Shown here piece after piece: positions 11,963-14,131 of a DNA stretch of 64,000 bases. A program made the position numbers and the translations under genes. Position 1 is the first letter of the stretch. Each line of letters opens with the position of its first letter. Location of the stretch: NCBI GenBank assembly GCA_024958655.1, contig JANWUR010000005.1, positions 1 through 64,000 of the forward strand, in the 5' to 3' direction. The notes under the pieces were generated by a model, which worked only from the letters and a program-made list of their open reading frames with translations, was not told the origin of the DNA and searched no databases. This DNA is from Cyanobium sp. FGCU6. Its GTDB lineage: Bacteria; Cyanobacteriota; Cyanobacteriia; PCC-6307; Cyanobiaceae.

Positions 11963-14131
11963 TCAGGCGGCCACCAGCCAGCGGCCGGCCCCGCCGAGCA
12001 GGAGGGTGGTCAGCGAGAGCCCCGCCCAGGTGATCCAGGCCGGCTGCAGCAGGCGGCGCAGCAGCACCACCGAGCCCCCCACCCCCGTCAACACGGCGAG
12101 GGTCTGGCAGAAGGCCACAACATGGGGATCGGCGCTCCAGGCGGGCAGGCCATCCGCGGCGATCCCCAGCGGAGTTAGCGACGCCGGCAGCAGCAGCCCC
12201 GCCTCCCCCATCCCCAGGGGCAGGAAGTGGGCGAGCATCAACGCCCACAGAAGCGGCAGCAGGGCGTAGAGCAGCAGACGCTGCCGCGCGGCCGGCCAGC
12301 GCGCCGGCGCCAGGGCGATCGTGAACCAGCGCAGCAGCTGGAAAGCCGCCGAGGGCAGGGCCAGGATCAGGGTGGCCGCCGCCAGCCGGGGCAGCAGTGA
12401 ACCCTCATGCAGGCTCGCAGGAGCGTGGGGGAGCCAGGTGAGCAGCTTCGGCCCGTGGTGCAGCAGCACACCGCCGGCCAGCACCAGGATCAGGCCGGTC
12501 TCCCCGTCGGGGGGGGCCATGTCGCGCTGGAGGTCGGCGGCGGGTGGGCGCAGGCGCAGCTGCACCGAGCGGTGGGGACAGGCCTGGGCGCAGGTGAGGC
12601 ACAGCACGCAGTTGCGGTTGTCCGTGAGGTGGGCGGGATGGGTGCCGAGTGGGCAGCCGGCGGTGGCCAGGCCCTCGCCCTCGGCCGGCCCGCCCTTGAA
12701 GCAGGCGTAGGTGGTGCAGCTGCCGCTGCAGGTGCCCGCCTGAGCCCGCAGTTCACTGATCGCCAGCTTGGCGAACAGGCCGTTCATGCCCCCCACCGGG
12801 CAGAGATAGCGGCACCAGAAGCGCTTCTCGAAGCGCAGCGAGCCGATCACCGCCCCGGCGGTGATCAGCAGCAGCAGCAGGCTGCTGAGGCGCGCCGTGT
12901 CCTGCAGGTCGGCCAGCTCCTCCCACAACAGAATGGCGGCGAAGCCAACCGCCAGCAGCGGAGCGGCCCAGCGGTCGCTGTCCCCCCGCGGCCAGCGGGC
13001 GGGGTGCCAGCCGAGGCGCCGCCCCGTGCGCTGCACGATCTCCCCCCACACCATGAACGGGCAGAAGGAGCACCACAGCCGCCCCACCAGGGGATAGGCC
13101 AGCAGGATCAGCGGCCACCACCAGGCCCAGAAGAGGTTGAGGGCGCCGTTGTGCGCACGGTCCTGGGGGCCGAGCCACAGCCAGAGGTTCACCAGCACGA
13201 ACACCCAGCTCACGAGCCCGAACAGCAGGGCGTTCCACAGCCGCGGCGAGCGCATCCACTCCCTGAGCACCGGCTTCCAGCGCCAGAGATCGAAGCGGGC
13301 CCGCGTGTTGCGGCGCTCCGTCCAGAACACGTCCTCCGGCAGCTCGGCCGGGCAGGTGGCGCTGCACTGGCGCAGGGCCCGCTCGATCAGCTGGCTGAGC
13401 TCGCGCAGATTGCCTGGGAAGTCGTAGGTCTGCAGACGCTTCACCAGCGCCTCTCCCACCTGCGGCGGCCGGGGCCAGCCCAGGCTGAGCGCCCGTTGTC
13501 GCACGCCGTAGCGCAGCCATTCCCCCAGGTCCTGCCGGCGCACCCGCAGGGGCGGCACCCGGATCTGCCGCACCAGCGGATCCAGATCGGCAACGGTGGT
13601 CTCGGTGGTGAGGAACACCCGGCCCGGGAAGCGCCGCTCCACCCCGTCGGCGTCCGTCCAGCGCCCCGATCGCACCAGCTCCAGCAGCGCCGGGCGCAGC
13701 TCGTGGGGCACCTTGTCGATCTGGTCGATCAGCAGCGATCCCCGCCCCAGGCATTCGAGCAGAGGCGGCGCCTCGGCGCTGCTGCCCGGGCCCACTCCGG
13801 CGGCGAACAGCTCGCCCCCGTCCGGGCGCAACAGCGCCCCGTTGAGACGCACCATCAGCTGGTGACGGGCGGCCGAGCCGAAGTGGATCAGGGCGGCGAT
13901 GTTGTCCTTCTCCAGGCCCGGTTCGCCGCTGATCAGCACCGGCCTGGCGTCGGCATCGGCGGCAGCGCAGCGGACCGCCTCCCGCAGCTGGCGGGCGTAG
14001 CGGCTGCTGCCCACAATCCCCCGCCGGGCCCGGCCCAGCAGGAAGGGAGCAAGGCGCATCAGGGCGGCGGCATCAGGGGAGACCGTGCCCGCCCCGCCAG
14101 TGGGGGTTGCTTCGCCGGCCATCGCTGCCAC
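11963..14131 (-). CDS. NtrC-like AAA+ domain fused to NosR/NapH-like membrane polyferredoxin
   Basis: A 722-residue fusion. Residues about 35-260 resemble the sigma-54 activator AAA+ domain: degenerate Walker A GEPGLEKDN (69-77), Walker B GSLLIDQID (131-139) with Gln in place of the catalytic Glu, and sensor II-like FPGNLREL. The GAFTGA loop that contacts sigma-54 is missing. From about residue 310 the protein is a polytopic membrane domain of the NosR/NapH type, with LWCSFCPF, FWCRYLCPVGG (CxxxCP), a CSGSCTTYAC cluster and a ferredoxin-type CVLCLTCAQACPH motif that could bind one 4Fe-4S cluster. The C-terminal third is hydrophobic. A role in membrane electron transfer, perhaps with a regulatory head, is inferred. 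Cyanobacteria are known to lack sigma-54. Confidence 0.8.
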   Translation of the reverse strand: MAAMAGEATPTGGAGTVSPDAAALMRLAPFLLGRARRGIVGSSRYARQLREAVRCAAADADARPVLISGEPGLEKDNIAALIHFGSAARHQLMVRLNGALLRPDGGELFAAGVGPGSSAEAPPLLECLGRGSLLIDQIDKVPHELRPALLELVRSGRWTDADGVERRFPGRVFLTTETTVADLDPLVRQIRVPPLRVRRQDLGEWLRYGVRQRALSLGWPRPPQVGEALVKRLQTYDFPGNLRELSQLIERALRQCSATCPAELPEDVFWTERRNTRARFDLWRWKPVLREWMRSPRLWNALLFGLVSWVFVLVNLWLWLGPQDRAHNGALNLFWAWWWPLILLAYPLVGRLWCSFCPFMVWGEIVQRTGRRLGWHPARWPRGDSDRWAAPLLAVGFAAILLWEELADLQDTARLSSLLLLLITAGAVIGSLRFEKRFWCRYLCPVGGMNGLFAKLAISELRAQAGTCSGSCTTYACFKGGPAEGEGLATAGCPLGTHPAHLTDNRNCVLCLTCAQACPHRSVQLRLRPPAADLQRDMAPPDGETGLILVLAGGVLLHHGPKLLTWLPHAPASLHEGSLLPRLAAATLILALPSAAFQLLRWFTIALAPARWPAARQRLLLYALLPLLWALMLAHFLPLGMGEAGLLLPASLTPLGIAADGLPAWSADPHVVAFCQTLAVLTGVGGSVVLLRRLLQPAWITWAGLSLTTLLLGGAGRWLVAA

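Follow-up and report, generated by a model that had tools for sequence, protein, structure and literature searches.

A cyanobacterial protein family that joins a bEBP-type AAA+ head to a membrane polyferredoxin

Why would a cyanobacterium keep an NtrC-like AAA+ module when no sigma-54 gene was detected in its genome, and what might that module do when fused to a membrane polyferredoxin? These questions are raised by a gene on the reverse strand of a 64,000-nucleotide stretch of DNA from Cyanobium sp. FGCU6 (the window). The gene (11963..14131, 722 amino acids plus stop) was delimited from its open reading frame and a 93%-identical relative (L006). A GTG at 14131 was taken as the start codon, which is uncertain, the other candidate being an ATG at 14122; strong conservation among relatives sets in at about residue 22 of the window protein. 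All features described below lie on the same strand.

The fused gene and its altered AAA+ head

Residues 34-276 comprise an AAA+ core and lid of the bEBP type (NtrC/PspF), and from about residue 285 onward the protein is a membrane Fe-S protein. Sequence analysis confirms that the two parts are fused in a single 722-aa gene, as the initial annotation had described it: Pfam matches, NCBIfam similarity and a single ORF all agree with an NtrC-like AAA+ module joined to a NosR/NapH-like Fe-S membrane domain. That annotation had also warned that separate AAA+ and ferredoxin genes in close relatives would point to an assembly artefact. Relatives at 36-93% identity are also fused, and an artefact is ruled out, although two of the 21 matches from f1, the family to which the window belongs, are split ORFs. 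The genome of the window (4.07 Mb, with a completeness of 99.97%) contains one family match at E<=1e-10 and four further Sigma54_activat matches besides the fused gene. An AlphaFold model of the full protein had a mean pLDDT of 80.6 and a pTM of 0.67.

The AAA+ core (residues 34-195, 13547..14032) matches Sigma54_activat over residues 40-159 (32.7 bits against a cut-off of 20.2), and the lid (residues 196-276, 13304..13546) matches AAA_lid_14 over residues 196-268 (33.3 bits against 27). The predicted structure, a check that had been proposed for the fusion, returned a bEBP-type fold: residues 34-272 superimpose on FleQ (6jdi) with a VIA-align Z of 19.1 and an rmsd of 3.3 over 231 aligned residues, with further fold matches to an NtrC1 Walker B mutant (3m0e) and PspF, and a profile match to a NifA chain (9qq6) at E=1.5e-21.

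Motif and cysteine conservation was counted over 134 distinct sequences (142 rows), consisting of 94 picocyanobacterial members, 31 other members of subfamily I and nine members of subfamily II; the window protein belongs to subfamily I. In its altered Walker A motif, GEPGLEKDN (residues 69-77, 13901..13927), Lys75 is kept in 134/134 sequences, and residue 76 is Asp in 125/125 sequences of subfamily I and Thr in 9/9 of subfamily II. The same division was seen in the loci used for neighbourhood analysis, where GxGKT was found in 30/31 subfamily II loci (the exception, L145, is truncated) and GLxKD in 39/41 subfamily I loci, two being unmatched by the pattern. The earlier description of Walker A as degenerate holds for the window protein; subfamily II has a normal GxGKT. 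With Ser/Thr replaced by Asp and the Lys kept, nucleotide binding by subfamily I may still be possible.

The Walker B motif of the window protein, LLIDQID (residues 133-139, 13715..13735), has Gln at the position of the catalytic Glu (residue 137). The replacement had been pointed out before and holds for this protein, but Gln shares this position with other residues: the 94 distinct picocyanobacterial sequences have Q (40), K (30), N (12), G (5), C (4) or R (3), and subfamily II has Asn. The constant feature is that Glu never occurs there (0/134). On these alignments the hydrolysis Glu is gone in both subfamilies, and a normal P-loop is retained by subfamily II alone. The absence of the sigma-54 contact loop was likewise borne out. 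The GAFTGA stretch is missing from the window protein (its site is at residues 106-124, 13760..13816), and GAFTGA-like and FRxDLxxR patterns, in the forms that we assume for these motifs, occur in 0/134 family sequences each. An Arg located by alignment, which we take to be the sensor II Arg, is kept in 87/94 picocyanobacterial, 15/31 other subfamily I and 0/9 subfamily II sequences.

In order to determine how far the fusion has spread, as had also been proposed, a draw of 386 genomes across the phylum was searched with the window protein, and 112 matched at E<=1e-10. Of the 112, eight come from genomes outside the class, and these match through the AAA+ or the NapH-like part alone. The other 104 all fall among the draw's 185 PsaA/B-positive genomes; since 81 of the 185 have no family match, the family is dispensable. 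Reading of the match ranges placed head and membrane part in one frame in 101/104 genomes, the remaining three being the two split ORFs (G257 and G342) and a fragment alone (G284). Additional partial or broken copies were noted in G133, G207 and G116. Within f1, which has a match in 21/58 genomes, three rows (G201, G348 and G272; loci L101-L103) contain a TGA within the match; their open frame begins at query residue 16-19, so the stops are taken to precede the conserved part. In a separate draw from the class, 261/388 genomes matched a subfamily II query (P0003) at E<=1e-30, a search that picked up both subfamilies, and a one-ORF match was found in 80/80 loci examined (the best 80 of 524 genome contig matches). 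Judged by these surveys, the fused family is old and widespread in cyanobacteria. A MAG labelled Bifidobacterium breve (L021) also holds this cyanobacterial gene at 75% identity and is probably a mislabelled bin.

The membrane iron-sulfur half and a proposed function

The second half of the protein matches Fer4_5 (PF12801) in two stretches (36.5 bits against a cut-off of 22) and the NapH/MauN family TIGR02163 at E=1.4e-9, its 37.9 bits lying far under the NCBIfam cut-off of 213.05; by this measure it is related to NapH/MauN and is no member of TIGR02163. Between head and ferredoxin domain, AlphaFold places four long helices (296-320, 329-356, 386-406 and 413-433), which we read as probable membrane helices, and a shorter one (358-372). 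Four crossings would leave the head and the ferredoxin domain both in the cytosol; the shorter helix, if it crosses the membrane, could upset this topology. Helices 2 and 4 each border on a Cys-Pro motif: WCxxCP (C354 and C357; 13058..13075) at the end of helix 329-356, and WCRYLCP (C440 and C444; residues 439-445, 12797..12817). They are followed by an eight-Cys ferredoxin-like domain (C468, C472, C477, C493, C508, C511, C514 and C518; 12542..12742), which falls below the Fer4 cut-off and is poorly modelled (pLDDT <50 at 464-510), and by a helical membrane domain in the AlphaFold model (residues 541-722, 11966..12511). All 12 Cys are invariant in the 134 distinct sequences. The eight-Cys domain is expected to hold two [4Fe-4S] clusters, and the four Cys at the membrane edge could bind a third.

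Modelled alone, the membrane half reached a pLDDT of 80.6 and a pTM of 0.84. Foldseek found no match to solved structures at E<=0.001, and in a separate structural comparison the best Z was 5.4; these results are not proof of a new fold. Outside the phylum, where the membrane half was compared with a plasmid collection, the closest stand-alone relative found was WP_027463891.1 of Deinococcus ficus (plasmid pDFI1), with 30.6% identity over 92% of the query. Like the window protein, it has all 12 Cys, and E544, Y622, E643 and Q676 of the C-terminal membrane domain are aligned as well; unlike the window protein, it stands alone without an AAA+ head and has Phe for Pro in the second Cys-Pro motif. 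The existence of this relative indicates that the membrane unit is viable without the head; the head would be an addition that regulates or scaffolds. Upstream of the Deinococcus gene, and overlapping it by 4 bases, lies a gene for a His-rich hypothetical protein (L156:7027-7953, forward strand) with no Pfam match and, by eye, a hydrophobic start, which may be an extracytosolic partner of the stand-alone relative.

We propose that the window protein transfers electrons in the membrane and has a cytosol-facing, non-hydrolysing head that regulates or oligomerises, a reading to which we give an even chance. The Fe-S clusters of this NapH/NosR-like protein would face the cytosol and would be reduced by quinol or, from the cytosol, by ferredoxin or an NAD(P)H enzyme. 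Electrons would pass through the ferredoxin clusters and then the four membrane-edge Cys to an acceptor located within the membrane or on its far side. NapH-like proteins have been proposed to carry electrons across the membrane (PMC8238504). The head, a former bEBP AAA+ module that presumably makes no sigma-54 contact and hydrolyses no ATP, would oligomerise, bind a ligand or both, and in so doing gate or scaffold electron flow. The initial annotation is in part supported: its account of the fusion and of the lost sigma-54 activator features holds, and its nucleotide sensor or assembly platform stays a hypothesis. Weighing against our own reading are the dispensability of the family, the want of a recurrent neighbour in subfamily I, the missing structural match for the membrane half and the poor model of the ferredoxin domain. 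A more specific version, which we advance as speculation and consider unlikely in this detail, is that a bEBP AAA+ ring became detached from transcription and now serves as the allosteric head of a regulated membrane oxidoreductase of the ferredoxin:plastoquinone type or linked to sulfide; subfamily II would bind ATP without splitting it, and subfamily I would be locked by its altered P-loop.

Neighbours, extension and ancestry, and the competing explanations

A survey of gene neighbours, suggested at the outset, was informative for one subfamily and yielded nothing for the other. cysK is found on the same strand <1000 bases downstream of the fused gene at 19/31 subfamily II loci versus 0/41 subfamily I loci; one more subfamily II locus has cysK at 1107 bases, and 12/31 have no adjacent cysK. 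Other neighbours of the 31 subfamily II genes are psbA (9), petC (7), a NifX-like cofactor-binding protein (6), rhodanese (5), a Tll0287-like protein (5), SQR-like (4) and YgaP-like TM (4) proteins, ho2 with hemN (3), cydAB (3, named by eye), feoB (3) and an HdrB-like protein (2); the SQR-like and HdrB-like matches are under their NCBIfam cut-offs and their functional assignment is tentative. At least one of these non-cysK genes was found at 21/31 subfamily II loci (10/31 had none) versus 1/41 subfamily I loci (petC), counts that are no independent tests, as some of the subfamily II loci are closely related and the genes were picked for their recurrence. Across the 41 non-picocyanobacterial subfamily I loci there was no recurrent neighbour, the largest component (6/41) being response regulators by eye. 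Picocyanobacterial neighbours, identified by reading translations, are housekeeping-like (helicase, phosphoesterase, CBS and PgsA-like); they look like conserved chromosome order, and an operon-based function for the window gene was dropped.

The subfamily II setting appears to be one of sulfide or low oxygen, and subfamily II would likely serve redox balance under those conditions; we infer, by extension, that a similar setting could hold for subfamily I. Two plasmids, Pseudanabaena pPg_03 (L157) and Aulosira plasmid2 (L158), carry stretches with cysK, petC, psbA and rhodanese, joined in Pseudanabaena by DsrE and DUF2892, and these look like portable sulfide/low-oxygen clusters.

The neighbourhoods bear on an alternative in which the protein takes part in metal or cofactor maturation, as a CcoG/NosR-like accessory that reduces metal or supplies electrons for assembly and uses its head as a docking platform. 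CcoG is a copper reductase. The 4-base overlap with the His-rich protein gene in Deinococcus fits this role, as do feoB and the NifX-like protein at 3/31 and 6/31 subfamily II loci, but both are found at 0/41 subfamily I loci, and copper or iron genes are not neighbours across the family in general. We regard maturation as unlikely.

The N terminus differs between members. Among the full-length non-picocyanobacterial members (L105-L147, counting L112 and L135 as one gene), 36/41 exceed 800 aa and align across an N-terminal extension. Pfam identifies this extension as a cNMP_binding domain in the two members tested, P0002 and P0003 (with 46.5 and 54.0 bits against a cut-off of 27.5). The window protein has neither the extension nor a cNMP_binding match in Pfam, and an HMM built from the extension of the 36 long members gave two matches among ORFs of >=150 aa in L001-L104, neither being the fused gene. 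Because both subfamilies have the extension, its loss in picocyanobacteria appears probable. By eye, the extension rows of subfamily I show no Arg at what we presume to be the phosphate-binding place of a cNMP domain.

The cNMP/CRP-like sensor domain of P0002 and P0003, together with the descent of the head from signal-transducing modules, would suit a membrane redox sensor, in which the clusters sense redox state or sulfide, the head signals to a cytosolic partner and electron transfer is secondary. A conserved C-terminal membrane domain and an eight-Cys domain exceed what a sensor needs, however, and Pfam scans revealed no HTH or other output domain, leaving this explanation rather improbable.

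Selection and phylogeny bear on the possibility that the head has no function and is decaying as a passenger. Between the window protein and L006 (93% identity), dN and dS were 0.036 and 0.284 for the head, 0.032 and 0.324 for residues 60-140, and 0.044 and 0.279 for the membrane part; from this one pair the head appears to be under purifying selection, with a dN/dS of ~0.13. Mean pairwise identity over the first 60 picocyanobacterial rows was 0.65 for the head versus 0.85 for the Fe-S region. FastTree phylogenies of both halves (91 sequences each), another of the proposed checks, recovered the same deep clades: the bipartitions of subfamily II (30 sequences) and the picocyanobacteria (17 sequences) had support of 1.0 in both, a comparison of two named clades as unrooted bipartitions. 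This fits a single ancient fusion. The variable Walker B of picocyanobacteria, the further loss of head sequence in L100 and L101 and the two split ORFs in f1 are what a decaying passenger would leave; the dN/dS of the head, the invariance of K75 and D76 in subfamily I and the shared deep clades stand against it and make it quite improbable. The heads of L100 and L101 (genus g9) are shortened and have lost more sequence near Walker B (LLVSGMD) and the ELF stretch.

The initial annotation had held that rpoN in this genome would refute a repurposed head. No rpoN match (PF04552, E<=0.001) was found in the 99.97%-complete genome of the window, and with GAFTGA, the Walker B Glu and rpoN all missing, an active sigma-54 activator is ruled out. 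Across the phylum draw, 11/386 genomes had an rpoN match at E<=0.001 and two exceeded the cut-off, one within the class (G125) and one beyond it (G224). The G125 match (contig C1; L159:5918-6538, reverse strand; E=2.3e-16) is a 207-aa ORF in a genome that is also PsaA/B-positive; it covers the sigma-54 DNA-binding domain model alone, which was the model searched, and may be what is left of rpoN or a domain put to new use. According to a 2011 survey, sigma-54 and its activators were absent from all 29 cyanobacteria examined, with a GAFTGA filter applied (PMC3162934); such a filter would have excluded the fused family. An active regulator working with sigma-70 RNA polymerase, in the manner of TyrR or DhaR, could draw on the homology of the head to bEBPs, some of which are sigma-54 independent (PMC3162934), but the protein is membrane bound, lacks the Walker B Glu and has no DNA-binding domain detectable by Pfam, and we find this barely credible.

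Relation to known systems

No published function for the family was found in the open-licence literature. Synechocystis slr0593, a "cAMP binding membrane protein", is presumably a family member. Its log2 change was about -1.3 at both 3 and 12 h of iron deprivation in the expression table of PMC3516471. The family is present in 104/185 sampled PsaA/B-positive genomes, and two annotated records are named after its disabled or degenerate parts. These are plasmid proteins of subfamily II adjoining cysK, recorded as "cyclic nucleotide-binding domain-containing protein" (Pseudanabaena) and "nitrogen assimilation regulatory protein" (Aulosira). Both belong to the same fused family, their names omit the membrane polyferredoxin, and the window member lacks the cNMP-like domain. 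If the head gates electron flow, the family would trace a route from transcription motor to regulator of a membrane enzyme, and subfamily II could be tested as a component of the sulfide/low-oxygen response of cyanobacteria.

In its AAA+ core and lid the head is homologous to the bEBPs (NtrC/PspF/NifA; FleQ, VpsR) by both profile and fold. Unlike them, the family has no GAFTGA-like loop, Walker B Glu or FRxDLxxR in any of its 134 distinct sequences, and the window protein is membrane fused, in a genome without detected rpoN, with no HTH family found in Pfam scans of it or of P0002 and P0003. A disabled gene-switch motor that evolution has kept without its usual partner suggests reuse for tuning membrane electron flow. 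With the NapH/MauN/NosR polyferredoxins (PF12801) the window protein shares an eight-Cys part resembling ferredoxin and a pair of Cys-Pro motifs located at membrane helices; it differs from them in having no flavin domain found by Pfam, an extra C-terminal membrane domain and a cytosolic AAA+ head.
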